Assembly (NCBI RefSeq): GCF_000143845.1
Contig: NC_014363.1
Coordinates: forward strand, 1,101,186-1,165,185
Direction: 5' to 3'
Source: Olsenella uli DSM 7084
GTDB taxonomy: Bacteria; Actinomycetota; Coriobacteriia; Coriobacteriales; Atopobiaceae
DNA: 64,000 nt
Part shown: positions 33,124 to 49,829 of the stretch, piece after piece
How positions within the stretch are numbered: the stretch's first letter is position 1
Layout: each line of letters opens with the position of its first letter
Notes under the pieces: model-generated
What the model was told of the DNA's origin: nothing
Databases searched by the model: none
The model's input: only the letters and a program-made list of their open reading frames with translations
Translations under genes and position numbers: made by a program

Positions 33124-33139
33124 GTGGTCCGTCCCCTCC

Positions 33140-35266
33140 CTAGTATTCGTTCCAGAGACGCGGCTTCTCGAGGGTCAGGCGCAGGTCGCACTGCAGGCAG
33201 CGGCTCGCCTCGCGCTTGGCCTCGGACTCGCTGAACGGGCACTCGAACGGCTCGAGGGCGCCCTTGCGCTCGGATGCCGGAACGAACTGGGGAAGGACCG
33301 GGCTGTCATAGAAGCCGGGGGCGGCCTTGCCGATACGCTGTTCGCCCTCCTCGCGGTCCAGCAGTTCCTCGCTGATGTCGCCGTCGCCTCCCAGGAAGCG
33401 GTCGATGGAGCTGGCGGCCTCGCGGCCCTGGGCGATGGCGGCGATCACGGACTTGGTACCGGTGACGTCATCGCCAGCGGAGAAGACGCCCTCGACGGAG
33501 GTCATGAGGCAACCGTCCGCGACGACGTAGGGACCGTGTGTGAGCGCGAGGCCCATGACCGGCGTATCCTCGGGCTTCTGGCCCACGGCGAAGATGACGT
33601 AGTCTGCCGGGAGCGTGAGCTCGGAGCCCTCCACGAGCTCGGTCACGGCGCGGTGGTTCTCGTCGAAGTAGAAGCGGGAGATCTTCTGGATAGTCATTCC
33701 TCCCACGAATCCCGGCTTCTCGGGGGACTCGTCGATGGAGTTGAAGGCGTGGGCGTCATGCAGGACGATACCCTCCTCGGCCGCCTCCTTGCGCTCCTCG
33801 GGGGTGGAGGTCATCCTGTCCTCGGCCTCGAGGCACGCCACGTCGACGCTCTTGGCGCCCAGGCGAACCGCCGTGCGTGCGCAGTCATAGGCGACGTTGC
33901 CCCCACCGAGGACGACGACGCGGCCCTCCTCGACGGGAAGGGGTTTGCCTTCGCGAGCGGCCTTCAGGAAGGCGGTATTAACGTAGACGTTCTTGAGGCC
34001 ATGTCCCTTCATGGGAAGCACGATACCCTGGTGGGTCCCCACCGTGACGAGGACGGCGTCGAAGTCGCCCCTGAGCGAGACGGGGTCAACAACGCGCTCG
34101 CCCAGCCTGAGGTCGATGCGCGGCCGAGGGTCTGTGCCCTGGGAGACCTCGAGGATCGTATCGATCTCTCTGTCGATGGCCTCGTCGGGCAGGCGGTAGG
34201 CCGGAATGCCATAGCGCAGCTGGCCGCCGGCCTTCTGATTGGCCTCGAACACGGTGACGCGATGGCCCTTCTCGGCGAGGTAGAGTGCGGCGGTGAGGCC
34301 TGCGGGGCCTGCGCCGATGACGGCAACCGACTTGCCCGTGAGGGGATCGTGGCGCACGCGGCTCTTCCAGGCGCCGTTGTCGCGCACTGCTGCCGCACGC
34401 TTCAGGCGGCAGATGGAGAGCGGTCCGTGCAGGTCGTTGCGCTTGCACTCGCCCTGGCAGTTGTGGGTGCAGATGGAACCCAGCGTCTCGGGGAAGGGGA
34501 CCCTCTCGCGCACGACGGCCGTGGCCTTCTCCCACTCTCCCTGCTTGATGTAGCGCAGGTAGCGCGGGATCTCGATGTGCGCAGGACAGCCGAAACGACA
34601 GGGGACGACGTTGTCCTCGCTGGAGCGCTCGGGCTTCGCCAGGCCGAGGGCATCGACAATCGAGCCGGTCGGGCATACCTCGACGCAGGCCCCGCAGAAG
34701 CGGCAGCCCGCCTCCTCGAGAGAGACGCCCCCGTCGATGCCGATGCGGATGCCGCTCTCGGTGCGCTGGTAGTCAAGGACACCCACGCCGCGCAGGTCGC
34801 GGCAGGCGCGCACGCAGCGGCCGCAGCGGATGCAGCGGGTGAACATGTGCGTGATGAGCGGGTTGGAGTCGTCCGTCGGGACGGAGCGGATCTTGCAGCG
34901 CCAGCGCGCGGGCGAGACGCCCATGTATTGGTACATGGACTGCAGCTCGCACACACCGTACTTGGGGCAGCCCGTGCAGTCGGCGGGATGTGTGGCGAGG
35001 ATGAGTTCCATCGCCATGCGACGGACCTTGTCGGCCACCACGCTCTCGGCGTCGACGGACATGCCCTCGCGCACCGTGGTCTTGCAGGCCGGCACAGCCT
35101 CGCCGTCACCGTCGACCTCGACCACGCAGAGACGACAGCCGCCCACCGCCTCGAGGTCGGGGTGCTTGCACAGGTGCGGGATGAAGATGCCGTTGTCCAG
35201 GGCCGCATCCAGAACGGAGGTGCCCCCCTCGGCCTTGACCTCCCGGCCGTTGATAGTCAGCTTCAC
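33140..35266 (-). CDS. NuoG-like iron-sulfur / GltD-like FAD-NAD(P)H oxidoreductase fusion
   Basis: Predicted to pass electrons between NAD(P)H, FAD and iron-sulfur clusters. The 708-residue protein starts with a [2Fe-2S] domain (CGGCRLC-type ligands in LEAVGGCRLCVVE), a His-Cys cluster region (HPADCTGCPKYGVC), and two ferredoxin clusters (CIRCGRCVRAC, CRFCGACVEVC). A GltD-like half follows, with a cysteine-rich bridge, an FAD site AVIGAGPAGLTAALYLAEKG and an NAD(P) site VVLGGGNVAYDCARTA. The GTG start has AGGAGAG 7 nt upstream. With the downstream ferredoxin protein it resembles an electron-input module for the flavoprotein genes upstream. The acceptor is not known. Confidence 0.82.
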   Translation of the reverse strand: MKLTINGREVKAEGGTSVLDAALDNGIFIPHLCKHPDLEAVGGCRLCVVEVDGDGEAVPACKTTVREGMSVDAESVVADKVRRMAMELILATHPADCTGCPKYGVCELQSMYQYMGVSPARWRCKIRSVPTDDSNPLITHMFTRCIRCGRCVRACRDLRGVGVLDYQRTESGIRIGIDGGVSLEEAGCRFCGACVEVCPTGSIVDALGLAKPERSSEDNVVPCRFGCPAHIEIPRYLRYIKQGEWEKATAVVRERVPFPETLGSICTHNCQGECKRNDLHGPLSICRLKRAAAVRDNGAWKSRVRHDPLTGKSVAVIGAGPAGLTAALYLAEKGHRVTVFEANQKAGGQLRYGIPAYRLPDEAIDREIDTILEVSQGTDPRPRIDLRLGERVVDPVSLRGDFDAVLVTVGTHQGIVLPMKGHGLKNVYVNTAFLKAAREGKPLPVEEGRVVVLGGGNVAYDCARTAVRLGAKSVDVACLEAEDRMTSTPEERKEAAEEGIVLHDAHAFNSIDESPEKPGFVGGMTIQKISRFYFDENHRAVTELVEGSELTLPADYVIFAVGQKPEDTPVMGLALTHGPYVVADGCLMTSVEGVFSAGDDVTGTKSVIAAIAQGREAASSIDRFLGGDGDISEELLDREEGEQRIGKAAPGFYDSPVLPQFVPASERKGALEPFECPFSESEAKREASRCLQCDLRLTLEKPRLWNEY

Positions 35267-35288
35267 GTTATGTCTCTCCTAGGGTCGA

Positions 35289-35354
35289 GCCCTGTGCGCT
35301 CCCTTCCCCTGAGGCGCGCACAGGGCAAGACGGGACCCTCGAGCGAGGGTCCCG
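35289..35354 (-). promoter_or_regulatory. Tandem perfect hairpins in an intercistronic gap
   Basis: GCCCTGTGCGC (35289-35299) pairs with GCGCACAGGGC (35316-35326), and CGGGACCCTC (35331-35340) pairs with GAGGGTCCCG (35345-35354). Neither is followed by a T run on the minus strand. They lie between the flavoprotein gene and the NuoG/GltD-like gene and may set their relative expression or protect mRNA ends. Confidence 0.55.
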
Positions 35355-35376
35355 CTCAGACGAGGCGTGCTGGGAG

Positions 35377-36906
35377 CTAGTCCCACTCCTCCTCGTCTCC
35401 ATCCGCGTAATCGAACGCTGCCATGGAGGCGTTCTCGCCTGCGATGCGACCGGAGTTGAGGCAGAAGCCCATGGTGTTGCCGGGGATGGAGTAGTTGTAG
35501 GAGTCACCGTAGATGGTGCAGGCGTCGGTGCCGACGCAGTAGAGGCCCGGAATGACCTTGTACTCGTCGTTCATGACCTCCATGCGGTCGTTGACCAGCA
35601 CGCCGCCCAGGGTGCCGTAGGCGCCCATGTACTGGCGGCAGGCGTAGAACGGGCCGCTCTCGAGCGGCTGCATGAACTGGCGCTCCTTCTCGAAGAGCTC
35701 ATCGTAGCCTGCGTGGCACATCTCGTTGTAGGCCTCGACGTTCTTGGACAGGCCCTCGGGGTCGATACCGATCTTCTCGGCGAGCTCCTCGAGCGTGTCG
35801 GCGCGGGCGATGACATGGTCGCCGTTGCCGTCGACATAGGTGTCGAGATCCTGCTCGAACTGCTCCTCGAAGTGCTCGTAGAGGTCGTGCGGGTGGACGT
35901 GAGAGACGATGTCAGGCCCGTTCTTCTTCCAGTTCTTGAGCATCCTGGAGTCGAAGAGGGCGAAGCCCACCTTACCCGGCAGGTGGTTGATGGCGTTGCC
36001 GACGAAGGTGGTGTTGAAGATGTCGTCCTCGGGCATGAAGCGCTCGCCGTTGCGGTCGCACCAATAGGTGGGCTGGCGGAAGGCGCCCTCGACGTAGAAG
36101 TGGTTCATGTTGTCAGGAAGCTGGTACATCATCTCCATGGTGACGGGCGTGCGGCCGGCGCCGACGGCGTGGCACATGTTGTAACCGTCGCCGTCCATGC
36201 CGGGCACGGCGAAGGAGTAGAGGTTCTTACCCCAGTCGAGGCCGATCTTCTCCTGGATCATCTTGGCGTTGGCGCCGAAGCCGCCGGTGGCGACGATGAC
36301 CGCCTTGCAGGAGACCTCGACCTCCCCGCCGTCCTTGTCGGCGGCGCGCACTCCTACGACGGCACCCCCGCCGTCGACGACGAGGCTCTTGCCGGGGGTC
36401 TCGAACAGGAACTCGACGCCGAGCTCCTGGGCGCGCTCGGTCATGCGCTTGGTCATCGTGGTCGCGGCGCGCGGGCCCGGCTCGGAGCCGTCCTCGGGCT
36501 GGACGACATGCCAGGTGTATTCGCCGTCGGCGTAGGCGCGGGTGCGCTCGCGGGCGCGGAACGCCGGGCGCACGGAGTTGAAGACGACGCCCATGTCCTG
36601 CAGCCATGAGATGGTGTCGCCGCTCTTGAAGTAGTATGCGCGCACCAAGCGGGGATCGACCTGATAGTGCGTATAGAACATGTGGCGGCGGAAGAGCTCG
36701 CCGGGCGTGACCTCGATCATGGACGCGCGCTGCACGGGCGAGCCGGCCGCACAGGGGCCCATGCCCATGTTGGCGGCGCCGCCGGTGTTGGAGGCCTTCT
36801 CCAGCGTGATGACGCTCGCGCCGCCCTCGGCCGCCGCGATGGAGGCCGCCAGGCCCGAGAGGCCCGCGGCAACGACGACGACGTCGCACTCAAGCTGCTT
36901 TGCCAT
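35377..36906 (-). CDS. Fumarate-reductase-like FAD-dependent oxidoreductase
   Basis: Member of the FAD-binding-2 family (fumarate reductase, urocanate reductase, 3-ketosteroid dehydrogenase). The 509-residue protein has an N-terminal FAD site, VVVAAGLSGLAASIAAAEGG, with TLEKASNTGGAANMGMG, and a C-terminal half with GTLGGVLVNDRMEV, IPGLYCVGTDA and SIPGNTMGFCLNSGRIAGENA, as in family members. The first Gly of the GxGxxG motif is Ala. There is no signal peptide, heme-binding or covalent-FMN domain, so it is cytosolic and must receive electrons from partner proteins. AGGAGGAG precedes the ATG. An alkene or enone reductase role is inferred; the substrate is unknown. Confidence 0.82.
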   Translation of the reverse strand: MAKQLECDVVVVAAGLSGLAASIAAAEGGASVITLEKASNTGGAANMGMGPCAAGSPVQRASMIEVTPGELFRRHMFYTHYQVDPRLVRAYYFKSGDTISWLQDMGVVFNSVRPAFRARERTRAYADGEYTWHVVQPEDGSEPGPRAATTMTKRMTERAQELGVEFLFETPGKSLVVDGGGAVVGVRAADKDGGEVEVSCKAVIVATGGFGANAKMIQEKIGLDWGKNLYSFAVPGMDGDGYNMCHAVGAGRTPVTMEMMYQLPDNMNHFYVEGAFRQPTYWCDRNGERFMPEDDIFNTTFVGNAINHLPGKVGFALFDSRMLKNWKKNGPDIVSHVHPHDLYEHFEEQFEQDLDTYVDGNGDHVIARADTLEELAEKIGIDPEGLSKNVEAYNEMCHAGYDELFEKERQFMQPLESGPFYACRQYMGAYGTLGGVLVNDRMEVMNDEYKVIPGLYCVGTDACTIYGDSYNYSIPGNTMGFCLNSGRIAGENASMAAFDYADGDEEEWD

Positions 36907-37057
36907 GTACTCCTCCTGATGTGTCTGCCTACCTGAAGCCGCCCACCTCGTGGCGAACGGCAGCGTTGCTGTCTACCTTCCCAGAATGCCGTCAGCGGGG
37001 CCATGTGCAATCGGACAAAGCTCGCGGTTCTGTCCCGCCCGCTCCCTGTGTGGGCAG

Positions 37058-38035
37058 CTAGGCGCGCACGGGCATGCTGGCCGAGACAAACGCCTTGTAG
37101 CGCGCGACGCGACGCTTGTACTCGTCGCCCTTCTGGAGCTGGGAAAGCTCGCCCTCCATGCGACCGATGTCCTCGCCGTGGATCTGCTTGCCCTCGGCGG
37201 TGTCGTGGGCGCGGAAGAGCCCACGCTCGTCGTGGGTTTCCTCGTCGAGGTAGACCACCTTGACGACGCCGCCTTCGAGCGTGACATGGCCCTCGAGGCC
37301 GCAGACCGAGCAGATGGCCTTGTCCGTGTCGGGGACCAGGTAGTAGTCGTTGGCATGGCAGTGCGGGCAGGTGCCGTCCTCGCCCTGGTACGCCGCGTGC
37401 TCGGGATCCTTTGCGGCGTTGGCCATGTTGGTGCCGATCTGATGGGCGCGCGCGACGACCTCGTCGTCGAGCAGCGCGCGCTTGGACCAGGGCACCCACT
37501 CGTTATCGATGACGCGCCAGGTGGGGGTCATGGCCTGGATGGCATGGTCGGACTGGACGTGCGTGCCCCAGTCGGACCCGCCGATGCCGATGTAGGAGAT
37601 GGGCTTGCCCGGACAGATGATGCGCGGGTCGGGCAGCTTCGCCTTGCCTCCCTCGGCGATGATCTTCTGGGCTATCTGGGTCGAGATGACGTTGTTGCCG
37701 GTGTCCATGCGGGGCCCGAAGCGGTCCATGATGGTGTGGAACAGGCCCGACGCGCCGGTCTCGAAGATGGGGTCGCAGATGACGATGCCATCGGCCTCGG
37801 CCATCTTGAAGAAGAGCCAATCGAAGTCGTCCTTGTGAATGCACATGTTGCCGCGGCCGCTCATCAGCATCTTGACGCAGGTGATACAGCCCGTGCAGTG
37901 TTTGATGTCCAGGTCCATCGCACGGATGAACTCGACCTCGCAGCCCCGCTCGGCAGCGCCCATCAGGGCCTCCTTGCAGATGCTGTCGTTGTTGCCGTTT
38001 TTGGTGCCGAAGGAAATGCCCAGAACCTTGGTCAT
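37058..38035 (-). CDS. Iron-sulfur flavoprotein / NAD(P)H-dependent FMN reductase family
   Basis: Flavodoxin-like FMN protein that could shuttle electrons or reduce small molecules. The 325-residue protein begins MTKVLGISFGTKNGNND, the FMN-phosphate loop, and then has CTGCITCVKML with a further cysteine (GNMCIHKDD), like the compact [4Fe-4S] motif of Isf proteins. Past the flavodoxin domain it has a zinc-ribbon-like CPHCHANDYYLV plus AICSVCGLEG, unusual for the family. The ATG at 38035 gives the family N terminus. It is first of the minus-strand redox genes, 187 nt below the pucR stop codon and 151 nt above the FAD protein gene. Confidence 0.8.
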   Translation of the reverse strand: MTKVLGISFGTKNGNNDSICKEALMGAAERGCEVEFIRAMDLDIKHCTGCITCVKMLMSGRGNMCIHKDDFDWLFFKMAEADGIVICDPIFETGASGLFHTIMDRFGPRMDTGNNVISTQIAQKIIAEGGKAKLPDPRIICPGKPISYIGIGGSDWGTHVQSDHAIQAMTPTWRVIDNEWVPWSKRALLDDEVVARAHQIGTNMANAAKDPEHAAYQGEDGTCPHCHANDYYLVPDTDKAICSVCGLEGHVTLEGGVVKVVYLDEETHDERGLFRAHDTAEGKQIHGEDIGRMEGELSQLQKGDEYKRRVARYKAFVSASMPVRA

Positions 38036-38222: not shown

Positions 38223-39779
38223 CTAATGCCCCACGCCCTCCATGAGCGAGGCGGAGAAGCTGAGCGCCAGCCGGTCGTCGCCGTCCTTGAGGTCGACGAA
38301 GAACAGCTCGCGTATCTTGTTCACGCGATAGAAGTACGTGTTGCGATGCACGCTCAGCGCCGCCGCGGCGTCGGCCGGGCTTCCCGGGTGACGCACGCTC
38401 ATGATGGCCGTCCGCAGGTAGGAGGTGCCATGATCGCGATCGTAGTCGGCCATTGCGACCACGCGCTTGTCCAGCAGCATCTCGAGCCGTTCGGGAGAGC
38501 CCACAATGGCTGCGAGGGCGGCGAAGCGGTGTTCCCAGTAGAAGAACATCCTGCCAGGCCCCGGCTCGCGGATGGTCTCGCCGAGGTCAAGCGCCTCCTG
38601 CAGGCGCTCCGGACACTTGGAGAGGTCGTCGAAGGGCTCGCTCACGAAGGCCGAGAGCCCGTTATTCTGGAGCATGGAAACGAAGGCCTCGTTGGTCCGG
38701 AGTTGCCTCTGGGCGCGAGCGTAGTCATCGTAGCCCACAGCTTCATTCCTCCCGATGGGCGCAAGCACCACGAGGCAGTCCTCGCGGGCATACCACAGGC
38801 AGTTGCACAGCGCGCGCACGGCCATCGCGCCCACGCGGGCGTGGTATTCCTTGTCGGCGTTACGCTGGCCCGTGAGGGCGAGCAGCACGTAGGACTCCCC
38901 GATGGGCAGGCGCGTGAGCAGGATCTGGGCACGCATGGTCCGCTCGTTGACGAAGGAGCCCTCCACGAGATCGTGCAGCACCGAGGAACCGGCACCCACG
39001 CGCTCCCCTGCAGCACCAAGACGCTCGATCATCACACCCGCAAGCTGACCTGCATAGTCGATGAGCTCTAGATCGAAGCCCGTGATGGGGCTGTCCTTCT
39101 CGAGGACGTCATAGCGACCCATCTCAAGGTGATGGTAGTAGATGATCGACGTGACCCACCGGCGGCCGTAGCGCTGGGTCCCGCTCATGATAGAGTGGCG
39201 CGCATGGCGCACGGAAGCCAGCGTGCCGTCACCTTCGAGCGCCGAGTTGACCTCCTCGGTGAGATAGCCCTGCGAGAGGACCTCCTGGACGTCGGGCGCG
39301 TCGGCCGGGAACTCACCCGCCGTGGCGAGCAGCCGCATATCCGCGTTGGCGATGATCACGGGGTTACCAAGGACGGCCGAGGAGCGGCGCGCGAACTGCG
39401 CAAGGTCGTAGCTGGAGAGGAACGCATCGAACATGCGGTCCCGTCGGAGCTCCAGCACAGCCGCCTTCGCAGGCAAGTCGAGGAAGGCCGCACGGAAATC
39501 GTCGTAGCTTGCGCTATGCGCCACCGCCACGAAGTCGCCCATCACGCGAAGGTCCACCGGGATCTGGGACCCGGCATGGACGAGCATGATATGGCGCTGA
39601 CCAGGACGCACGCTGCCCGCGCGGAAGTCGAAGAGGCGCACCACCCTCAGCAGCCTCGCCTTAGGTGGGACGTTCGTCTCGTACTCGGGGGTGAGCAGGA
39701 CGTCCTCGTCGAGGATCCCTTCCCTGCCTATGCGCCAGTCGGCGCAGGCAAGCTCGTACAGGACCGTCCTCAGCTTCAT
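38223..39779 (-). CDS. PucR-type transcriptional regulator
   Basis: Probable activator or repressor of the genes on either side. The 518-residue protein has a variable N-terminal sensory region, a GGDEF-like CdaR central region, and a C-terminal PucR helix-turn-helix with PADAAAALSVHRNTYFYRVNKIRELF, which matches the HTH_30 pattern. The start at 39779 (MKLRTVLYELACADW) has GAGGGGG 6 nt upstream. It is divergent from the CocE-like gene, and a perfect inverted repeat GGCACAA/TTGTGCC brackets its likely -10 box. The effector is unknown; in the family it is often a nitrogen- or carbon-source metabolite. Confidence 0.85.
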   Translation of the reverse strand: MKLRTVLYELACADWRIGREGILDEDVLLTPEYETNVPPKARLLRVVRLFDFRAGSVRPGQRHIMLVHAGSQIPVDLRVMGDFVAVAHSASYDDFRAAFLDLPAKAAVLELRRDRMFDAFLSSYDLAQFARRSSAVLGNPVIIANADMRLLATAGEFPADAPDVQEVLSQGYLTEEVNSALEGDGTLASVRHARHSIMSGTQRYGRRWVTSIIYYHHLEMGRYDVLEKDSPITGFDLELIDYAGQLAGVMIERLGAAGERVGAGSSVLHDLVEGSFVNERTMRAQILLTRLPIGESYVLLALTGQRNADKEYHARVGAMAVRALCNCLWYAREDCLVVLAPIGRNEAVGYDDYARAQRQLRTNEAFVSMLQNNGLSAFVSEPFDDLSKCPERLQEALDLGETIREPGPGRMFFYWEHRFAALAAIVGSPERLEMLLDKRVVAMADYDRDHGTSYLRTAIMSVRHPGSPADAAAALSVHRNTYFYRVNKIRELFFVDLKDGDDRLALSFSASLMEGVGH

Positions 39780-39798
39780 GGGTACCCCCTCATGCGAT

Positions 39799-39839
39799 GG
39801 CACAAATCATCATACCCCTGAGGATGCACCCATTGTGCC
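39799..39839. promoter_or_regulatory. Inverted repeat around the pucR promoter, candidate operator
   Basis: GGCACAA (39799-39805) and TTGTGCC (39833-39839) are perfect inverted copies with 27 bp between them. The minus strand has TATGAT between the two arms, a good -10 for the pucR-like gene. The arrangement fits an autoregulatory operator that could also act on the divergent hydrolase gene. Confidence 0.5.
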
Positions 39840-39990
39840 GCCGTTGGTCACGGGTACCGGCAGACGTCCGCGTTCGCACCAAAGTTTGTCACCTAGTCCA
39901 ATGACCCCGGGAGCGCAAGACCGGATACTTTTCCATGACGGAGACGGCGCCCGCAGTGCGTCGAGAGAGGTTCCCGAGAGGAGCGTTTCC

Positions 39991-41799
39991 ATGGCCGAAG
40001 AGAAGGAGTACAAGGGCATCTACAAGAAGATGACCTTTGGCGGCGAGGAGTTCGAGGTGCCCTTCGCCAAGGGCAACCCGGGCAAGTCCCGCGAGGAGCT
40101 CGACGAGATCAAGCGACGCCTCGCCGAGGACCCTGACGCGGGCGACGGAGAGATGGTCGCCACCATGGGCTTCTGCGCCAAGTACGATCCCCACACCTAC
40201 ATGACCGACATCCCGGGCGTGCTGTGCGATCGTGACGTGGCGTGCGTCCTGCGCGATGGCGTGACCATCTACGCAGACGTCTACCGCCCGGCAAACATCG
40301 GCGAGAAGGTGCCTGTCATCTGCGTCTTCGCCCCCTTTGGCAAGAACCCATCTGAGGGCATGGACTCCTGGCAGCTTATGGGCGTCCCGCCCAAGACCGT
40401 CTCTCAGTACGCCAAGTTCGAGGCCCCCGACCCCGGCTACTGGTGCCACCATGGCTATGCCGTGGCCAACGTCGACCCGCGCGGCGTCGGCAACTCCGAG
40501 GGCGACGTCTACCTCTGGGGGTCCCAGGACGCCCAGGACGGCTATGACTTCATCGAGTGGGTCACGGCCCAGGAGTGGTGCAACGGTCGTGCTACGATGA
40601 TCGGCAACTCCGGCGTCTGCATGGCCCACTGGCGCATCGCCGCAACCCGTCCGCCCCATCTCGCCTGTCTCGCAGCCTGGGAGGGTCAGGGCGACCTCTA
40701 CCGCGAGTCCTACTACTGCGGAGGCATCCCCAACCCCGACTACGAGACCCACATCATCCAGGCGCTCGCCGTGAACAACTACATCGAGGACACCCCGGCG
40801 ATGGTCGCCAAATACCCTCTCATGAACGCCTATTACAGGGACAAGGTCGTCGACTGGAACAAGATCCGCGTCCCAACCTATGTCACTGCCGGCTGGGTCC
40901 ACCACCACCTCCGCGGTGCCTTCGAGGGCTTCCGCCGCATCCGCACCCCCAAGAAATGGATGCGCGCCCACCGCGACTTCGAGTGGCCTGACACCTATAC
41001 GCCCGCCAACCTGGAGGACGTACGCAAGTTCTTTGACCGCTACTGCAAGGAGATCCACAACGGTTGGGAGATGACGCCACGCGTTCGTCTCGACGTCATG
41101 GACGCCTACGATTATGACTACGCCAACAAGCGCGCCGAGGACACCTTCCCGCTGAAGCGCACCGAGTACAAGAGGCTCTACCTCGACGCCGAGAACGGCG
41201 CTGCGGGCTTCGATGAGTTCGAGAGCGAGGCCGAGGTCGTCTACGATCCCAAGGCCGAGACCACCACGTTCACCTACGAGTTCACCGAGGACACCGAGAT
41301 CACCGGCTTCATGAAGCTGCACCTTAACGTCGAGTGCCGTGGCTACGATAACATGGACCTCTTTCCCTGGGTCATCAAGCTCGATCACGAAGGCAACTAC
41401 GTGCCCATCCGCGTCATGGGCGCTCCGTACCGCGGTGCATGGGGCTTCCTGCGCTGCAGCCACCGCGATCTCGATCCCAAGTACGCAAGTGACTTCCAGC
41501 CCGTGCACAGCCATGAGAAGGAGGAGCGCATGCAGCCCGGTGAGATCGTTCCCGTCGACGTCGAGATGTACCCGCACTCACGTTTCTGGCACAAGGGCGA
41601 GAAGCTCCAGGTCGTTATCGCCGGCCGTTTCATCAAGACCGAGTGGTTCCATGACAACGATATGAACCACAAGACCGATAACGGTGACGGCATGCACGTC
41701 ATCCACACCGGTGGGCGCCATCAGTCCTACCTGCAGATTCCGGTCGTTCCGCCCAAATACCAGGTTGGCGACTATATCTGGCGTGGCGATTGCCGCTAG
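39991..41799 (+). CDS. CocE/NonD-family alpha/beta hydrolase (X-Pro dipeptidyl-peptidase-like)
   Basis: Predicted serine hydrolase of an ester or amide. The 602-residue protein has an extra N-terminal region of about 70 residues, then the CocE fold (DVACVLRDGVTIYADVYRP), a nucleophile elbow in TMIGNSGVCMAHW, and a C-terminal jelly-roll domain ending with HTGGRHQSYLQIPVVP, as in CocE/NonD members. There is no signal peptide, so it is cytosolic. AGAGGAG lies 8 nt before the ATG. It is first in a plus-strand series with an MFS carrier, ACP, phosphate acyltransferase and acyl kinase, which suggests the substrate is imported and hydrolysed inside the cell. The substrate is unknown. Confidence 0.85.
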   Translation: MAEEKEYKGIYKKMTFGGEEFEVPFAKGNPGKSREELDEIKRRLAEDPDAGDGEMVATMGFCAKYDPHTYMTDIPGVLCDRDVACVLRDGVTIYADVYRPANIGEKVPVICVFAPFGKNPSEGMDSWQLMGVPPKTVSQYAKFEAPDPGYWCHHGYAVANVDPRGVGNSEGDVYLWGSQDAQDGYDFIEWVTAQEWCNGRATMIGNSGVCMAHWRIAATRPPHLACLAAWEGQGDLYRESYYCGGIPNPDYETHIIQALAVNNYIEDTPAMVAKYPLMNAYYRDKVVDWNKIRVPTYVTAGWVHHHLRGAFEGFRRIRTPKKWMRAHRDFEWPDTYTPANLEDVRKFFDRYCKEIHNGWEMTPRVRLDVMDAYDYDYANKRAEDTFPLKRTEYKRLYLDAENGAAGFDEFESEAEVVYDPKAETTTFTYEFTEDTEITGFMKLHLNVECRGYDNMDLFPWVIKLDHEGNYVPIRVMGAPYRGAWGFLRCSHRDLDPKYASDFQPVHSHEKEERMQPGEIVPVDVEMYPHSRFWHKGEKLQVVIAGRFIKTEWFHDNDMNHKTDNGDGMHVIHTGGRHQSYLQIPVVPPKYQVGDYIWRGDCR

Positions 41800-41930: not shown

Positions 41931-43223
41931 ATGTCTGACCAAAAGAAATTCAACGCCTGGTTGCCGAACTTCGGTGCCAAGGGCTGGGGCATCACCATCG
42001 CCTGCTTTGTGTTCTTCTACTTCTACTCGTTCTGGAACGCGGCGACCAACACGCTGTTCGGCCTGTACACCGAGATGTACGGCTGGCAGCAGACTGACAT
42101 GTCCTATGTCATCACCGTTGCGGGTTGGATTAGCCTGATCGCCGTCGTGCTGTTCGGCACGCTTGGCCGCAAGATCGGTGCCAGGATGGTTTCGACCATT
42201 GGCCTTGCGGGTTCCGCCCTTGGGTTTGCCGCACTTGCCTGCGCCAGTACGTTCGAGCTGTTCGTGGCCGGCGTTGTCATCTTCAACTTCTCGATGGTTG
42301 CCTACGCGACCATCGGTACGGGCCTTCTGGGCTCTGCCTGGTTCCCGCGCACCAAGGGCGCCTTCATGGGCATCGCCACCATGGGCATGACCATCTCGTC
42401 CGCCACGCTGAACCCTATCATCTTGGGGTTCGCCAGCAGTGCCTTCGGTATCTCCGGATTCTTCTGGGCTATGGCAGCCATCGTTGCCATTACCGCCATC
42501 GTGGTGTTCCTGTTCGTCAAGGACAATCCCGAGGAAGCCGGTGCGTATCCCGATAACAATCAGTCTGTGAGCCGCGAGGAGCTCGAGGGCGAGTTTAGGG
42601 CCGCGCTTGAGTACAAGAAGACAAGTCCCTGGACCACCGTTCGCGTGCTCAAGACCCCGCAGACTTGGCTTATCGGTCTCGGAACCGGTCTTCCCATGAT
42701 GGTCGGCGCCGGTACTATCGCCCTGCTCGTCCCGACGCTCGCGTCCTACGGCCAAGATTCCATGTTTGGCGTCGTGCTGTTGTCATCCATGTGGCCGATC
42801 GGTCTTCTGGGTCACTACCTCATCGGTGTGCTCGACCAGAAGCTCGGCACCAAGAAGACCACGCTCGTCGTGATCTGCGTGCTCGGACTCGGCAGCCTGT
42901 TCGTGAAGATGGGCGGTACCAGCTCCGTGGTGTGCGCCATTGCGACCGGCATGTTCATGTTCGGTCTTTCGGGTGCTGCAAACGTCTGCATGTCGCTGAC
43001 GGCTTCCATCTACGGTCGCGCCGACTTCGAGGTCGCTTACACGCCCATCCAGGTGATTTTCAACGTATTGAACTTCGCCGGCGTCTCCGTCATGTCCACG
43101 GTATCCGCCGTTGCCGGTCCGCAGAACGTCATGCTCGCCGTATTCACCATCTGCCTTATCGCGCTCGTCCCGGTGATTGTGCTGCCGTACAAGCAGATCG
43201 CATCCAACATCTGCGGAGAGTAG
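41931..43223 (+). CDS. MFS transporter
   Basis: Twelve-segment major facilitator carrier of 430 residues. The N-terminal half has the loop between segments 2 and 3 with LFGTLGRKIGARMVSTIG, close to the MFS A-motif, and there is a central hydrophilic loop around residues 195-230. AGGGAG precedes the ATG. It lies 131 nt after the CocE-like gene and before the acyl carrier protein, so it probably imports the substrate of this cluster. GTT, GGT and ATT codons are more frequent here than in the strongly GC-biased housekeeping genes, which may reflect transfer. Substrate unknown. Confidence 0.85.
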   Translation: MSDQKKFNAWLPNFGAKGWGITIACFVFFYFYSFWNAATNTLFGLYTEMYGWQQTDMSYVITVAGWISLIAVVLFGTLGRKIGARMVSTIGLAGSALGFAALACASTFELFVAGVVIFNFSMVAYATIGTGLLGSAWFPRTKGAFMGIATMGMTISSATLNPIILGFASSAFGISGFFWAMAAIVAITAIVVFLFVKDNPEEAGAYPDNNQSVSREELEGEFRAALEYKKTSPWTTVRVLKTPQTWLIGLGTGLPMMVGAGTIALLVPTLASYGQDSMFGVVLLSSMWPIGLLGHYLIGVLDQKLGTKKTTLVVICVLGLGSLFVKMGGTSSVVCAIATGMFMFGLSGAANVCMSLTASIYGRADFEVAYTPIQVIFNVLNFAGVSVMSTVSAVAGPQNVMLAVFTICLIALVPVIVLPYKQIASNICGE

Positions 43224-43340: not shown

Positions 43341-43592
43341 ATGAACGAATTCCAGGAAGAAGTCGTCGACGTCCTCAAGGACAAGGCCGTCGAGATCTTC
43401 GGTGTTGACCGTGACGGTCTCTCCGGTGAGACTTCCTTCGTCGACGACCTGCACTGCAAGTCCGTCAACATCGTCCAGTTCGCTTCTGCCCTCGAGGACG
43501 AGTACGAGGTTGAGATCCCCTTCATGGAGCTGAACAAGAAGAGGACCTTCGCCGAGGCTGCCCAGTTCGTGGATGACGCTCTGTCCATGTAG
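43341..43592 (+). CDS. Stand-alone acyl carrier protein
   Basis: Small acidic carrier of 83 residues that would hold an acyl group on phosphopantetheine. It has the four-helix ACP pattern: FQEEVVDVLKDKAVEIFG, then SFVDDLHCKSVNIVQF with the probable attachment serine, then ALEDEYEVEIPFMEL and a final helix. The usual DSL at the prosthetic-group site is here KSV, preceded by a cysteine, so it is a divergent ACP rather than the fatty-acid AcpP. No acyltransferase or ketosynthase gene is near. It lies directly upstream of a phosphate acyltransferase, separated by a strong hairpin, which suggests it supplies the acyl substrate or was fixed with that enzyme. Confidence 0.88.
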   Translation: MNEFQEEVVDVLKDKAVEIFGVDRDGLSGETSFVDDLHCKSVNIVQFASALEDEYEVEIPFMELNKKRTFAEAAQFVDDALSM

Positions 43593-43603
43593 TCTTACCC
43601 TCC

Positions 43604-43642
43604 GGGGCGGCCGTGAGCGACTCACGTCCGCCCCCTCTTCTT
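43604..43642 (+). terminator. Strong hairpin with T-rich tail between acp and the acyltransferase gene
   Basis: GGGGCGG (43604-43610) pairs with CCGCCCC (43628-43634), and the inner CGTGAG pairs with CTCACG around a CGA loop; TCTTCTTT follows. It begins 11 nt after the acp stop codon. Read-through would give a lower dose of the downstream enzymes than of the carrier. Confidence 0.8.
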
Positions 43643-43665
43643 TAACGAGAAAGGATGATGCCGGC

Positions 43666-44661
43666 ATGGCAACCCTGATCGATAAGCTCATCCAGGATGC
43701 CCAGGGTGCGCCCAAGCGAGTTGCGCTGCCCGAGTGCGAGGCCGAGAAGACGTTGCTCGCTGCCCGCCATGTGCTCGACGAGGGCATCGGTATGCCTGTG
43801 CTCGTGAGCCCGCGTTCCGTGATCGAGGAGACGGCCGCTCGGGCTGGCGTGTCGCTCGAGGGCATGGAGATCGTCGATAACGCCGACGAGGCCGCGGCCG
43901 ATGCGCTCGCCGAGCGCTACATGTCTAGTGGCCCGCGCCTCATCAGCGCCAAGGGCAGCCGCCGCAAGATAAAGAACCCCATGTATTACGCCATGATGAA
44001 GGAGGAGCTGGGCGATGTGGACTGCACGTTCTGCGGTCACGTCAACACCACGGGCGACGTACTCATGGCGGCGCAGACGGTGATCGGCCTAGCCGAGGGC
44101 GTCGATGTCCCGAGCATCCTGGCGCTTGTGGACACGCCGGCGTTCGAAGGTCCCGAGGGCAGCGTCATCGCCTTTACCGACTGCGGCCTGAACCCTGAGC
44201 CGACGGCTACCGAGCTGGCCTCGATTGCCATCTCCGCTGCCGATAACGTCCGCTCCATCATGGGCTGGGAGCCGCGCGTGGCGTTCCTGTCATTCTCCAC
44301 GGACGGTTCCGGTGCGGGTACGTCCGTCGACCGCGTGAGGGAGGCCATCGAGCTGGCTCGCGGGCGTCGTGCCGATCTGGCGATCGATGGCGAGTTCCAG
44401 CTCGACGCTGCCATCGACCCGGCCGTTGCCGCCAAGAAGGTCAAGCACGAGAGCGGCGTGGCCGGACGCGCCAACGTGCTTGTGTTCCCCGATCTGAACG
44501 CCGCCAACATCGCCGTCAAGCTCATCCAGCGCTTTGCCCACGGTGCCGCGTATGGTCATAACCTTTCCGGCTTTAAATGCCCGGTCGCCGACTCGTCACG
44601 CGGTGCCACAGTCGACGAGATCGTCGGCGACATCGCGATGCTCGTCCTTTCCGCCCGCTAG
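43666..44661 (+). CDS. Phosphate acetyl/butyryltransferase family enzyme
   Basis: Exchanges a thioester for an acyl phosphate: acyl-CoA (or possibly acyl-ACP) plus phosphate gives acyl phosphate. The 331-residue protein has the PTA_PTB fold, with VALPECEAEKTLLAARHVLD at the start, GPRLISAKGSRRKIKNPMYYAMMK, FLSFSTDGSGAG, and the C-terminal LVFPDLNAANIAVKLIQRFA with AYGHNLSGFKCPVADSSRGA. These are all characteristic. The length is that of a single-domain enzyme. It pairs with the butyrate-kinase-like gene downstream; the ACP gene just upstream is unusual for this family. Acyl chain and carrier are not determined by sequence. Confidence 0.88.
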   Translation: MATLIDKLIQDAQGAPKRVALPECEAEKTLLAARHVLDEGIGMPVLVSPRSVIEETAARAGVSLEGMEIVDNADEAAADALAERYMSSGPRLISAKGSRRKIKNPMYYAMMKEELGDVDCTFCGHVNTTGDVLMAAQTVIGLAEGVDVPSILALVDTPAFEGPEGSVIAFTDCGLNPEPTATELASIAISAADNVRSIMGWEPRVAFLSFSTDGSGAGTSVDRVREAIELARGRRADLAIDGEFQLDAAIDPAVAAKKVKHESGVAGRANVLVFPDLNAANIAVKLIQRFAHGAAYGHNLSGFKCPVADSSRGATVDEIVGDIAMLVLSAR

Positions 44662-44843
44662 GTTCTGCGGTGGCTGCCACTGAGTTTGGTTCGCTGGGTC
44701 GTCGCGGGCGATGAAGTTGTCGTCGGATCCTGGTGGCGCTGTGCCTATGGGCTGCAGTGCTGGAGCCAACCTTGCCGCGGTCCATGCTCGGGCTTGTCGT
44801 GCACGACGTGTCGTCTCCAGGTCTGGAAGAAGGGAAGCAACCC

Positions 44844-45242
44844 ATGTGCGAATGGAATATCGATACCATCCTGTGCGACCTGGTGCTCTCCCTTGTCATC
44901 AACACGTCGGCCATGCTGCTCGGCAGCGCGGTCTTCACCTTCCAGGCATGGTATCCGGGTGTGGCATCCGCTTTTTTCACCAACGTGCTGTTGCAACTGG
45001 TACTGCCCGTACCGGGTATTGCGGCTGCCGTAACGGCGTGGGTGGGCGAGCATCGCTGGCGCCCCATCGTGCGGGTGTTCGTCGAGAACCTCATCTTTGT
45101 GACGTGCATCTCGCTCACCATGGCGTTCATCCAGGCCCCGGCGGGCGGCGACGTCATTGCCGCCTGGCTCTCGACGTACGTTTGCCTCGTGCTGATTGGC
45201 TACGTGACGTCCCTCATCCTCTTCGCTGTCCAAAGCCGATAA
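44844..45242 (+). CDS. Small four-helix membrane protein, DUF2798-like
   Basis: A 132-residue hydrophobic protein with about four membrane segments in two similar halves, the second beginning IVRVFVENLIFVTCISLTMAF. The pattern is like the DUF2798 type, but this is by eye only and no function is known for that family. GAAGGGAAG lies upstream of the ATG at 44844. It is sandwiched between the acyl phosphate-forming and acyl kinase genes, and ends 25 nt before the kinase start. It may help move the acid product or a cation. A second protein of similar type is encoded at 48796-49317. The 182-nt gap before it holds nothing recognisable. Confidence 0.7.
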   Translation: MCEWNIDTILCDLVLSLVINTSAMLLGSAVFTFQAWYPGVASAFFTNVLLQLVLPVPGIAAAVTAWVGEHRWRPIVRVFVENLIFVTCISLTMAFIQAPAGGDVIAAWLSTYVCLVLIGYVTSLILFAVQSR

Positions 45243-45267
45243 CTCATTCCGATGCAAGGAGTCCGCT

Positions 45268-46392
45268 ATGAGCTACAAGATCCTGACCCTCTCCCCCGGC
45301 TCGACGTCCACCAAAGTCGCCGTGTTCGACGGCACCGAGGCGCTCTTTCGCCTGAACGTTACCCATCCCTCCGAGGAGCTCGCCAAGTACGACATGGCGG
45401 CCGACCAGTTCGAGTACCGCAAGGGGACGATCCTCTCCGCCCTCGAGGGCAACGGCGTCAGGCTCGCCGACATCGACGCATTCTCCGGCTACTGCGGGGC
45501 CATGGGACCCACTGTCGGCGGCATCTTCGCCATCGACCGGAAGGTCTGCGACCACGTGCTGGACGCCGGCGTGAACCACCCGGCAATCCTCGGCGCCCCG
45601 CTCCTCTACGCCTTTGCGCGGGAGGTGGGACGCCCTGCCTACGCCGTCAACCAGCCCGACACCGACGAGCTCTGCGACGTGGCGCGCATCACCGGCTGGC
45701 CGGGCGTTTACCGTAAGAGCCACGTCCACTGCCTCAACCAGAAGGAGTGCGCCATCCGCTGCGCCGCCGAGCTGGGCATGGGCTACGAGGACGGCAACTT
45801 CATCGTCGCGCACGTAGGCGGCGGCCTCTCCGTCGCATGCCACGAGCGGGGGCGCATGGTCGATACCAACGACGTCCTCGAGGGCGCCGGCCCCTTCGCG
45901 CCCAACCGCTGCGGCGACGTTCCCGCGAAGCCCGTGGTCAGGATGGCCTTTGCCGAGGGCGCCCAGAGGAAGCAGATGGACGGCGTGGTCGGCAAGACGG
46001 GCGGCCTCGTCGGCCTGCTGGGAACCGACGACGCCCGCAAGATCCTCGCACGTATCGAGCAGGGCGACGCATGGGCCGAAGTCGTCTATGACGCCATGGC
46101 CTACCAGGTCTCCAAGTATGTCGCGGGTTTCGCGGCCGTCCTCAAGGGCAAGGTCGACGGCATCGTCCTGACCGGCGGCGTCTCCCATGACCCGCGCTTC
46201 GTTTCCTACGTGACCGAGCGGGTCGAGTGGATCGCGCCCGTGAAGGTCTACGCGGGCGACTTCGAGATGGACGCCCTGGCCTCTGGTGCCATCCGGGCGC
46301 TTGACGGTGAGGAGCCCGTGATGGCCTTCACCGGCGAACCCTCCTGGAAGGGCTTCTCGATGGACGGCGCGATCGCGGACGTGGAGGCGTAG
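45268..46392 (+). CDS. buk: Butyrate kinase family acyl kinase
   Basis: Transfers phosphate from butyryl (or another short acyl) phosphate to ADP, making ATP and the free acid. The 374-residue ASKHA-fold protein starts YKILTLSPGSTSTKVAVFDG, has HPAILGAPLLYAFAREVG, the adenosine/phosphate motif FIVAHVGGGLSVACHERGR, and DGIVLTGGVSHDPRFV near the end. GAGGAP-like LEGAGPFAPNRCGDVP is the expected substrate loop. It is slightly longer than the typical 355 residues. It follows ptb and the small membrane protein. Chain-length preference cannot be read; branched or aryl acids are possible. Confidence 0.9.
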   Translation: MSYKILTLSPGSTSTKVAVFDGTEALFRLNVTHPSEELAKYDMAADQFEYRKGTILSALEGNGVRLADIDAFSGYCGAMGPTVGGIFAIDRKVCDHVLDAGVNHPAILGAPLLYAFAREVGRPAYAVNQPDTDELCDVARITGWPGVYRKSHVHCLNQKECAIRCAAELGMGYEDGNFIVAHVGGGLSVACHERGRMVDTNDVLEGAGPFAPNRCGDVPAKPVVRMAFAEGAQRKQMDGVVGKTGGLVGLLGTDDARKILARIEQGDAWAEVVYDAMAYQVSKYVAGFAAVLKGKVDGIVLTGGVSHDPRFVSYVTERVEWIAPVKVYAGDFEMDALASGAIRALDGEEPVMAFTGEPSWKGFSMDGAIADVEA

Positions 46393-46394
46393 AC

Positions 46395-47696
46395 GTGGGG
46401 TCCTCTTCGCAGCGGGCCGTCGCCAGCGTGACGCGCGGCTTCCACTACGCCTTCGCCATCGTCGCGTCGTGTGTCGCGATCACCTGCCTGCCATGCGCGC
46501 TCGTGCTCAGCTGCGCAGGCATCTTCTTCACGCCGGTCTCGGCCTTCTTCGGCGTGCCCAAGGCCACCTTCACGCTGTACTTCTCCATCGTGAACCTCGC
46601 GATGATGGTCACGCTGCCCGTATGGGGCAAGCTCCTCTCCAGGCTGGACCTGCGCGTCGCCCTCTCCGCCGCAGTCGTCGCGACTGGCGTAGGTTGCCTT
46701 GGGATGTCCGCCTGCCAGGAGATGTGGCAGTTCTACGTCTGCGGGGCCATCATGGGCATCGGCGTCGCACCCTGCATCTACCTGGCCGTTCCCACGCTCA
46801 TCAACGCGTGGTGCGTCAAACGCGTGGGTTTCTTCGTGGGCCTGTGCATGGCATTCACGGGCATCGGCGGCGTGATCTTCAACCCCATCGGTACCGCGCT
46901 CATCAACGCTGGCGCCGAGGGCTGGCGGACCGCCTACCTCGTGTTCGGCGTGGTCATCCTCGTGGGCACGCTACCCTTCACCACCCTTGTGGTGAGGAGC
47001 CGCCCCGCCGACAAGGGGCTTCTCCCCTATGGCGCGGACGAGGCCGACGAGAGCGCTCCCTCCGCCACAGACGGCGCCTCTCCGGAACCCGACGACAGCA
47101 TGGAGGCCTCCGCCGCCATGAGGACCTCGGCGTTCTTCGCACTCGCAGCCTTCAGCGGCCTCATCACGCTCAACCAGACGATCTACCAGTACCTCGCCGG
47201 CTACGCGCAGTCCTTCGCACAGACGCTGCCTGCCGTCGCCGCGGCCTCTGGCATCGTGGCTTCGGCGGCCATGGCAGGCCAGGCCATCGGCAAGGTGCTG
47301 CTCGGCGTCGTCAACGACAGGTCCGTCAAGCTCGGAGCCGTCATGGGTATCGGCGCGGGCGTCGCGGGCGTCACCCTCATGTGGCTGCTGCCCGGCCAGC
47401 TCGCGCTGCTGCTCGTAGGAGCCTTCCTCTTTGGCATCGCCTACGCAGAGACCACGGTCCAGACACCGCTACTGGTCCGCACCGTCTTCGGAAGCGCCGA
47501 CTACACGAACGTCTACTCGTGCGTGAGCATGGTCGGGTCGTTCATGGGCACCTTCGCCGCCGTGTTCTGGAGCCTCGTGGTCGACTCGGCAGGCGGCTAT
47601 CCGCTCATGTTCGCCCTTGGCTACGTCTGCATGGTCGGCTGCCTTGCGCTCGCGCTCTTTTCGCTGCACTGGAAGGCGAGGCGAAACGCCACGTAA
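46395..47696 (+). CDS. MFS transporter
   Basis: Twelve-segment major facilitator carrier of 433 residues with a central acidic loop (about residues 205-240). The start is GTG at 46395, and its Shine-Dalgarno GGAGG overlaps the end of the buk gene, so the two are translationally coupled. This link suggests export of the acid made by Buk, or exchange of it for the substrate. It is not closely similar to the MFS carrier at 41931-43223; this one uses more GC-ending codons. A strong terminator lies about 60 nt past the stop. Confidence 0.86.
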   Translation: MGSSSQRAVASVTRGFHYAFAIVASCVAITCLPCALVLSCAGIFFTPVSAFFGVPKATFTLYFSIVNLAMMVTLPVWGKLLSRLDLRVALSAAVVATGVGCLGMSACQEMWQFYVCGAIMGIGVAPCIYLAVPTLINAWCVKRVGFFVGLCMAFTGIGGVIFNPIGTALINAGAEGWRTAYLVFGVVILVGTLPFTTLVVRSRPADKGLLPYGADEADESAPSATDGASPEPDDSMEASAAMRTSAFFALAAFSGLITLNQTIYQYLAGYAQSFAQTLPAVAAASGIVASAAMAGQAIGKVLLGVVNDRSVKLGAVMGIGAGVAGVTLMWLLPGQLALLLVGAFLFGIAYAETTVQTPLLVRTVFGSADYTNVYSCVSMVGSFMGTFAAVFWSLVVDSAGGYPLMFALGYVCMVGCLALALFSLHWKARRNAT

Positions 47697-47872: not shown

Positions 47873-48745
47873 CTACGTCCGCACGCGTCGCGCCTGGCGT
47901 GTGCGTACGGGTGGCAGGCCCCGGGTGATCACGGCGCGAAAGTCGCAGCTGTCGGGGTCGCTTGTCGGGCAGGGACAGAGGTGCAGTGTGCCCTCCCAGT
48001 CGCTCACGAGCATGTGGTGCCAGCTGTGCCCGCGGTCCGTCCGTGTGAAGGCGGCGGCCTCCTCGAAGGAGGCGAGGTCTGCATTGGTGAAGTCATGGCG
48101 GTGGTGGCCCGTCCAGAAGCGCTCGAAGGACAGCTTCTCCATCTTGTGCAGGGTCGCGAGCCAGCCGTCAAGGCCAAGCGACTCGGGAAAGCATAGGCAC
48201 ATGATGGGTGTGACGGCATCTCCAGAAAAGAGGATCCCCAGCTCGGGACACAGATACCCCACCGAGTCCGCGGTATGCCCCGGCAGCTCGACCGCCGCAA
48301 GCGTGCGCCCGCCAAGGTCGAAGGAGGTGCCTTCCGCCACGCGGCGCACGACGGGGCGAACGCCGTCACGAGGCCCGAACGGCACACCCGCCTCGTCGGC
48401 CATGCCTGCCACGAGCTCGAGGCCTTGCCTCTCGCAGGCATTCCACGCGCCCGCGCACGCCGAACCCACCCAGCACTCGCGCGCAAAGTAGGCGCCTCCC
48501 ACATGATCGGGATGGCAATGCGTGAGCAGCACGCGCAGCTGCTTCTTCTCGCCCACAAGGCCGCGCGCGAGGGAGACGACGTCTCCCAGGCCCGCCAGCG
48601 TGTCGACGAGCGCTGCCTCGCGCTCGCCCTCGACAAGGTAGCATAGGTCTCCGAGCGCATCCCCGATGCGCCAGAGCCTCTCGCCCAGCTCCTCGACCTC
48701 AAAGAGTCCGCCAGCCACCGCCGTCCCTTCCATACGGGCTTCCAT
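47873..48745 (-). CDS. Metallo-beta-lactamase-fold hydrolase (glyoxalase II-like)
   Basis: Predicted zinc-dependent thioester, ester or lactone hydrolase. The 290-residue protein has the metal motif LTHCHPDHVGGAYFA, then VELPGHTADSVGYLCPELG and LFSGDAVTPIM, giving the expected His, Asp and His ligands. The C terminus has an extra CPCPTSDPDSCDF cysteine cluster and a basic tail. Two starts are possible: 48745 (MEARMEGTA), used here, or 48733 (MEGTAVAGG). It lies 50 nt after a small membrane protein gene and is convergent with the buk-MFS series. The substrate is unknown. Confidence 0.82.
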   Translation of the reverse strand: MEARMEGTAVAGGLFEVEELGERLWRIGDALGDLCYLVEGEREAALVDTLAGLGDVVSLARGLVGEKKQLRVLLTHCHPDHVGGAYFARECWVGSACAGAWNACERQGLELVAGMADEAGVPFGPRDGVRPVVRRVAEGTSFDLGGRTLAAVELPGHTADSVGYLCPELGILFSGDAVTPIMCLCFPESLGLDGWLATLHKMEKLSFERFWTGHHRHDFTNADLASFEEAAAFTRTDRGHSWHHMLVSDWEGTLHLCPCPTSDPDSCDFRAVITRGLPPVRTRQARRVRT

Positions 48746-48795
48746 ATAAAAGCCTGCCTGCGCACGCAGGTCGACCAGGCCGTTGCCGGCTGATT

Positions 48796-49317
48796 CTAGT
48801 GCATGTCGCCCTCGGGCGCAGGATCGCTGCAAACAGTGCGGGCAAGGCTCTCGATCGGGCCCTGCGTGAGGAAGGTCACGATGTAGCAGGCAACCCAAAC
48901 GGGGATGATGCTCTGCGCCCAGCCGATGAAGAGCACCGGAAAGACGGGGGCGCCGCCCAGCACGACGGAGTCGAGCAGCGTCATCACGATGTTCAGGATG
49001 ACCGCATACCAGGTGTTGATGTAGGCGTTGACCCACAGGCCGAACTTTGCGCCATCGGAGGGCTTCGCGTGCCTCATGCCGAACGCAAACCCCGCATCGG
49101 GAATGTAAGGGACCATGCCGATGACGGTGGCACAGGCCCAGGCGACCACGAAGTTAATGGCAAACATCGGCCAGCTCCAACCAGCGGCGATGACATCCGC
49201 GGGGGCCTGCTTCCAGACGTAGATGGCCAACCACTCACAGAGCGCGCACAGCACGCAGGCCGTGAGGATGTTCAGCAGCGCTGCCTTGACGAAGCGTGTG
49301 GACCATTTCATGGGCAT
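48796..49317 (-). CDS. Small four-helix membrane protein, DUF2798-like
   Basis: A 173-residue hydrophobic protein with about four membrane segments in two loosely similar halves (VKAALLNILTACVLCALCEW, and VNAYINTWYAVILNIVMTLL). It has a cytoplasmic acidic C-terminal tail (DPAPEGDMH). GGAGG is 8 nt before the ATG at 49317. It resembles the protein encoded at 44844-45242 in layout. It is followed by the metallo-beta-lactamase-fold gene, so the two may work together. No function can be assigned. Confidence 0.72.
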   Translation of the reverse strand: MPMKWSTRFVKAALLNILTACVLCALCEWLAIYVWKQAPADVIAAGWSWPMFAINFVVAWACATVIGMVPYIPDAGFAFGMRHAKPSDGAKFGLWVNAYINTWYAVILNIVMTLLDSVVLGGAPVFPVLFIGWAQSIIPVWVACYIVTFLTQGPIESLARTVCSDPAPEGDMH

Positions 49318-49829
49318 GGCGGAAACCTCCTGTGTATCAAGTCCTCTCCAAAGCGTGCGCTTCCCACGCACTCCCCTGCCTGCCGCTGCCGGTGGCAAGC
49401 AGGTCCAAGCTGCTGCTAGCTTACAGAGAGATCCATGACCCCTTCATATTCCCTGGCACAAAAAAGAGGGCGTCACAGGTCATCTGTTGTGCGCCCATAC
49501 AATGACAGCCACCAATCGCTTGCGTCGATGCCCTCCATCTCTGGCAGGCCGATCGTCTCCGTCCATATGAACGCATCAGTAAATCGACAGTCGGTCACAT
49601 ACATTCGGCAGACGGGTTTTCTTCTCGCACATCTTGTATAGATATGAAGTAAGTGTGAAGAAAGTTAACTAAGGTCGCCCTTCGCTTAGGGGAAGGCGAG
49701 AGCCGTCTCCCCTTACAGCCATGTGCGTCCGCAGCATCGAATTCGCAGCGCTATTCTCGGCTTCAACTTGAAGGCCCCCCGGGCCGACGCCTCCATCTGC
49801 CGGCCCAGGCATACAGGGAAGGGACTGGC
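49318..49829. other. Gene-free intergenic region
   Basis: About 510 bp between divergent genes. It is AT-richer than its flanks around 49560-49675. On the plus strand CTTGTATAGATATGAAG near 49635 has -10-like TATAGA, which may serve the dehydrogenase gene, but no convincing -35 is seen. The approximate hairpin CGCCCTTCGCTTAGGGGAAGGCG lies near 49676-49698. No conserved coding frame, tRNA or repeat was found. Confidence 0.6.

Follow-up and report, generated by a model that had tools for sequence, protein, structure and literature searches.

We examined a 64,000-nucleotide stretch of the Olsenella uli DSM 7084 genome, referred to below as the window, in which a gene for a small acyl carrier protein (ACP) lies ahead of genes for a phosphate acyltransferase and an acid kinase. 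The genome is a single contig (C1) of 2,051,896 bases and the window spans C1:1101186-1165185. The original prediction proposed that ACP rather than coenzyme A (CoA) may be the acyl carrier of this cassette. The gene order that it gave, ACP, acyltransferase and then kinase, was confirmed by the open reading frames listed below. The acyltransferase and kinase genes are not contiguous as had been described, however, since a membrane protein gene that was overlooked earlier intervenes, and the start of the acyltransferase, formerly placed at 43573, is corrected here to the ATG at 43666.

39988-41799, + strand: CocE/NonD alpha/beta hydrolase (TIGR00976), predicted to form an acyl-enzyme and load the ACP; neighbor of the ACP in type A cassettes
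43341-43592, + strand: dedicated acyl carrier protein (PF00550), 83 amino acids, with Ser41 in the motif HCKSVN
43604-43634, + strand: terminator-like hairpin in the gap between the ACP and acyltransferase genes (-26.4 kcal/mol, z -3.7)
43666-44661, + strand: cassette-type phosphate acyltransferase (PF01515), a predicted acyl-ACP:phosphate acyltransferase
44844-45242, + strand: small predicted membrane protein with no Pfam or NCBIfam match; relatives found in other cassettes
45268-46392, + strand: butyrate-type acid kinase (TIGR02707)

Family assignments and a second cassette

The ACP had been called divergent and the kinase butyrate-type, and both labels hold. The ACP is divergent because it scored below every NCBIfam ACP cut-off, the AcpP type included (TIGR00517, 36.0 against 70.45 bits), while matching PF00550 (31.4 bits, cut-off 20.8). 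The kinase passed the butyrate kinase models TIGR02707 (362.4 bits, cut-off 289.1) and NF002834. The acyltransferase matched PF01515 over its full length (291 bits, cut-off 24) and missed the equivalog cut-offs of both Pta (TIGR00651, 253.6 against 311.2 bits) and Ptb (TIGR02706, 80.1 against 410.5 bits). These scores rule out Ptb identity and place the protein in the Pta branch. The Pfam scan gave PF01515 alone and did not assign it to the PlsX family.

Besides four ACPs and three full PF01515 proteins, the genome encodes a single acetate kinase and two kinases of the butyrate type. Two of the three PF01515 genes are each preceded by an ACP gene and followed by a kinase gene, the second such run being located at C1:584.3-586.7 kb. 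This second cassette (L042:7024-13608, equivalent to C1:581524-588108) consists of genes for a TetR regulator, a thiolase-like protein, an OB/DUF35 protein, ACP, acyltransferase, kinase and a major facilitator superfamily (MFS) transporter. The thiolase-like and OB/DUF35 proteins thus precede the ACP in the place of CocE, and the transporter follows the kinase. The acetate kinase and the PF01515 protein with the strongest match are encoded elsewhere and look like the housekeeping pair. We found no support for an inherited plsX-acpP neighborhood as the source of the arrangement; the weak PF01515 match at C1:1195.2-1196.3 kb, which adjoins a different ACP, probably represents the plsX-acpP pair with a housekeeping role.

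Co-conservation of the ACP and the acyltransferase

Two profiles, A1 for the cassette acyltransferases and A2 for the cassette ACPs, were searched across 199 genomes of the order Coriobacteriales, and both gave two-humped score distributions. For the acyltransferase, 23 genomes scored at least 434 bits and housekeeping proteins at most 302, with two intermediate values. For the ACP, 22 genomes scored at least 90 bits and the others at most 66. All 22 genomes with the cassette ACP are among the 23 with the cassette acyltransferase, and this ACP was found nowhere else among the 199. The remaining acyltransferase genome has a weaker ACP of 60.7 bits, 3.2 kb from the acyltransferase gene. Since related genomes are not independent, we report counts and no p-value. 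The original prediction looked for a KSV-type ACP strictly co-conserved with the acyltransferase, and this was observed in 22 of 22 order genomes; the opposite outcome, an ACP mostly without the acyltransferase among relatives, did not occur.

A wider scan, in which each of 84,980 species was represented by one genome, returned 373 acyltransferase relatives, and neighborhoods were examined within 8 kb for the best 80 of these 373 loci (throughout the text, loci are numbered with the prefix L). An ACP gene was near the acyltransferase at 72 of the 80, and both an ACP and a kinase gene at 62. As the 80 loci were picked by their acyltransferase, these proportions are silent on any ACP or CocE without one, which was covered by the order-wide ACP and CocE searches. 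Loci without an ACP mostly lie at contig ends or have one farther off in the genome; a lookup in 19 genomes found an ACP with a cassette-like score in 17, the exceptions being the genomes of L119 and L134.

Many of the hosts are anaerobes of the gut or rumen, and together the hosts span four phyla, Actinomycetota, Bacillota, Spirochaetota and Chloroflexota. Among the carriers are Slackia equolifaciens, Collinsella phocaeensis, Agathobacter ruminis, a Flavonifractor, Pseudobutyrivibrio, Anaerobacterium, Treponema and an Anaerolineales bacterium. In a tree built by a quick method with no bootstrap, the cassette acyltransferases formed one side of a branch against housekeeping Pta (SH-like approximate likelihood ratio test, 98), with L077 and L078 on long branches and of unsure placement. 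Members of the four phyla are intermixed within the cassette branch, which suggests that the cassette has moved between phyla.

The attachment-site serine is present in 102 of 102 cassette ACPs. These are acidic proteins, with a mean net charge of -9.4 and a value of -13 for the window ACP. A holo-ACP synthase gene lies within 8 kb of the acyltransferase at 39 of the 80 loci. In some Lachnospiraceae and Eubacterium cassettes (L101:5138-5700, also L102 and L108-L111), a tandem pair of ACP genes stands ahead of CocE.

The hairpin that follows the ACP gene in the window has a GC-rich stem and then T-rich sequence. Counterparts in L043, L045, L046, L081, L084, L086 and L094 have stems that differ in sequence, and their place is conserved; a similar one was seen by eye near 9901-9932 of L158, a Lachnospiraceae locus whose two-gene unit comprises just the ACP and acyltransferase genes. 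A consensus terminator scanner did not call the site at 43604-43634 because its T-run is too short for the rule. We predict that the hairpin may set the ACP in excess over the acyltransferase.

CoA-contact residues of the acyltransferase

We compared 106 distinct cassette enzymes with 24 canonical sequences in MtPta numbering, using residue roles from published work (PMC6461089, PMC10194888, PMC7902834). In PgPta, the 3'-phosphate of CoA is held by Arg89 and Lys92 (MtPta Arg87 and Lys90) and the beta-phosphate by Arg135 (MtPta Arg133), and MaeB no longer binds acetyl-CoA when Arg535 of its Pta domain, a 3'-phosphate-binding residue, is mutated (PMC6461089, PMC7902834). Tyr282 is also a listed CoA contact (PMC10194888). 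As ACP has no nucleotide, contacts with the CoA phosphates would be expected to disappear if the partner were ACP. Arg87 was found in none of the 106 cassette enzymes compared to 23 of 24 canonical ones; Arg133 and Tyr282 were present in all 24 canonical sequences and in a single cassette enzyme each, the Arg133 case being L078, on a short contig where no ACP was found. The window acyltransferase has Ser at site 87 and Met at site 133. The catalytic and pantetheine-site residues Gln244, Lys257, Asn279, Lys283, Asp307, Ser309 and Arg310 are present in all 106. The cassette enzymes have also gained basic residues, with E95 changed to Lys, E99 to Arg and A234 to Arg (102 of 106 each), S256 to Lys or Arg (98 of 106), and Lys or Arg gained at position 100. 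These new residues are predicted to face the strongly acidic ACP in a charge switch. Since the Arg87 loop aligned poorly, we placed the weight on sites 133 and 282 and on the charge switch.

Because the residues that grip CoA are lost from the acyltransferase, the ATP-linked step is probably run on the carrier protein. The co-conservation, and the loss of CoA-phosphate contacts with catalytic and pantetheine residues kept, give good support to the earlier suggestion that ACP may be the carrier. That the enzyme acts on acyl-ACP, in one direction or the other, is very probable.

Two loci stand apart. L077:3-2784 contains a divergent acyltransferase with Phe at the Arg133 site, OB and thiolase genes beside it and no recognizable ACP. 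In L078:923-4230, the acyltransferase with Arg133 retained is accompanied by two butyrate-type kinases, with no ACP found on the 4.3-kb contig, and this enzyme is a possible CoA-using relative.

Candidate loading enzymes and neighboring genes

CocE and the thiolase hold an equivalent place in the two cassette types, and both form acyl-enzymes by family. The window CocE scored 186.5 bits against TIGR00976 (cut-off 66.3). Its nucleophile Ser (in GNSG) and His are intact in 58 of 58 cassette CocEs; for the triad acid, pairwise alignments showed no clear counterpart of the Asp of cocaine esterase. The thiolase residues Cys97 and His374 are intact in 35 of 35 cassette thiolases. It is likely that one or the other of these enzymes loads the ACP.

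The other genes around the cassette in the window are listed below.

46395-47696, + strand: MFS transporter, distantly L-lactate or bile-salt-like by profile matches; recurrent in cassettes
41931-43223, + strand: MFS transporter by profile matches; recurrent in cassettes
38223-39803, - strand: PucR-type regulator (PF13556, PF17853), divergent from CocE; recurrent in cassettes
37061-38011, - strand: FMN reductase-like protein (PF03358); recurrent in cassettes
35380-36906, - strand: soluble fumarate/urocanate-reductase-like flavoprotein (PF00890, PDB matches), possible C=C reductase
33143-35266, - strand: Fe-S pyridine nucleotide oxidoreductase by domain architecture (Fer2_4, 4Fe-4S, Pyr_redox_2)
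32059-33123, - strand: NuoF-like 4Fe-4S protein by domain architecture
47876-49036, - strand: metallo-beta-lactamase-fold hydrolase, the fold read from the sequence by eye; recurrent beside cassettes

The four genes at 32059-38011, for the NuoF-like protein, the Fe-S oxidoreductase, the flavoprotein and the FMN reductase, make up a reductive module that also occurs beside Bacillota cassettes. Near the cassettes, flavoproteins of the fumarate/urocanate reductase family were found at 21 of the 80 loci, the Fe-S pyridine nucleotide oxidoreductase architecture at 33 and the NuoF-like architecture at 19. This module may give a hint to the class of substrate. A second small predicted membrane protein is encoded at 48796-49398 on the - strand, and its relatives also recur beside cassettes.

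Proposed function of the cassette

We propose that a substrate, probably reduced beforehand, would be imported and attacked by CocE in the window cassette, or by the Cys-dependent thiolase and its OB partner in the sister cassette, to form an acyl-enzyme. The ACP would then accept the acyl group on its phosphopantetheine thiol. Next, the acyltransferase would exchange ACP for phosphate, converting acyl-ACP to acyl phosphate, from which the kinase would form ATP and the free acid with ADP. As a whole, the explanation that a dedicated ACP replaces CoA in the acyl-phosphate pathway to ATP appears to us rather more plausible than otherwise. We infer that the net flow probably runs toward ATP, a direction favored because of the regulators, the transporters and the reductive module.

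Several observations weigh against this proposal. The reactions of the acyltransferase and the kinase are reversible, so the direction is not fixed by sequence. PgPta R89A and R135A, equivalent to losses at R87 and R133, remained active with decreases of 58% and 21% (PMC6461089), such that the absence of these arginines is no proof that CoA use is lost, and the poor alignment of the Arg87 loop may further weaken the comparison at that site. A strict tie of CocE to the ACP was ruled out, as five genomes of the order contain CocE relatives without the cassette; those of L182, L183, L184 and L185 are about 50% identical to the window CocE and adjoin a TetR gene, and neither an ACP gene nor an acyltransferase or kinase gene accompanies them. 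Six Lachnospiraceae loci (L158:9636-10996, L138, L143, L144, L151 and L155) have a KSA/KSV-type ACP and the acyltransferase with no kinase or loading enzyme nearby. Finally, a holo-ACP synthase gene is missing from the window cluster, and the two genes of the phosphopantetheinyl transferase family are located elsewhere in the genome.

The same enzymes could run in reverse, the kinase spending ATP to phosphorylate a free acid, the acyltransferase loading the ACP, and an acylated product being built from acyl-ACP by CocE or the thiolase, much as exogenous fatty acids are activated by the FakAB-PlsX-AcpB system. PlsX is freely reversible, and in Enterococcus faecalis the acyl group of acyl phosphate goes preferentially to the dedicated AcpB (PMC6509188, PMC12594616), which gives an ATP-consuming reading some plausibility. 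The thiolase-OB pair is also similar to the PhlC/PhlB acyltransferases. We nevertheless regard this direction as unlikely, since the PucR-type regulators, the monocarboxylate-like MFS carriers and the reductive module look catabolic and no elongating condensing enzyme was seen in the clusters; thiolases are also established to favor cleavage. Still less probable is an ordinary CoA pathway, with acyl-CoA as the substrate of the acyltransferase and some other task in the cluster for the ACP, for instance as a carrier for CocE only. Every enzyme here is from a family that normally uses CoA and canonical Pta tolerates losing the equivalent of R87 or R133 (PMC6461089), but the CoA-phosphate contacts were lost, and basic residues gained, near-uniformly over 106 sequences, and the ACP stays with the acyltransferase even where CocE, thiolase and kinase are all missing, and the two co-occur in 22 of 22 order genomes. 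An accidental neighborhood, with a stray ACP gene beside an unrelated acid-fermentation operon, has next to no probability: the terminator-like hairpin does part the two genes, but its position is kept among relatives, the arrangement recurs in four phyla, and the co-occurrence in the order genomes and the 80-locus scan rules it out.

Relation to known systems and significance

The proposed ACP-linked pathway resembles Pta-AckA and Ptb-Buk, which are textbook CoA reactions, in its enzyme families, in the step from acyl phosphate to ATP and in the catalytic residues that are kept. It differs in its predicted protein thioester carrier, the lost CoA-phosphate contacts, its own ACP and often its own holo-ACP synthase, and in an acyltransferase that falls below both equivalog cut-offs. 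Citrate lyase and malonate decarboxylase are also catabolic with an acyl-loaded carrier protein, but their prosthetic group is a special CoA-derived one, and their carrier is not acted on by a phosphotransacylase or a kinase. The PlsX-FakAB-AcpB system for exogenous fatty acid use in E. faecalis shares the exchange between acyl-ACP and acyl phosphate and a dedicated atypical ACP (PMC6509188, PMC12594616), whereas the cassette uses the PF01515 family, Buk in place of FakA, and CocE or thiolase with redox genes, with no link to lipid genes seen. The pairing of a thiolase, whose Cys and His are catalytic, with an OB/DUF35 protein is like that of the PhlC-PhlB and DUF35-thiolase complexes (PDB 5m3k, 6esq), except that the pair accompanies ACP, acyltransferase and kinase and its predicted acceptor is ACP; the phloroglucinol pathway uses CoA enzymes (PMC10470551). 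We found no published account of an ACP-acyltransferase-kinase system in the literature searched, which excluded most subscription papers and preprints.

We tentatively suggest that the cassette may represent a widespread form of anaerobic catabolism. When a C-C, ester or amide bond is cleaved, its energy would be saved by a serine hydrolase fold or a thiolase in the thioester of acyl-ACP, and ATP would then be made through acyl phosphate without CoA. If the proposal is correct, Coriobacteriia, Lachnospiraceae, Oscillospiraceae, Treponema and an Anaerolineales bacterium would hold an energy-yielding acyl pool separate from CoA. It would also provide a testable function for hundreds of genes that general profiles would label phosphate acetyltransferase, butyrate kinase or CocE hydrolase, and a handle on the compound that the bacteria with this cassette ferment.

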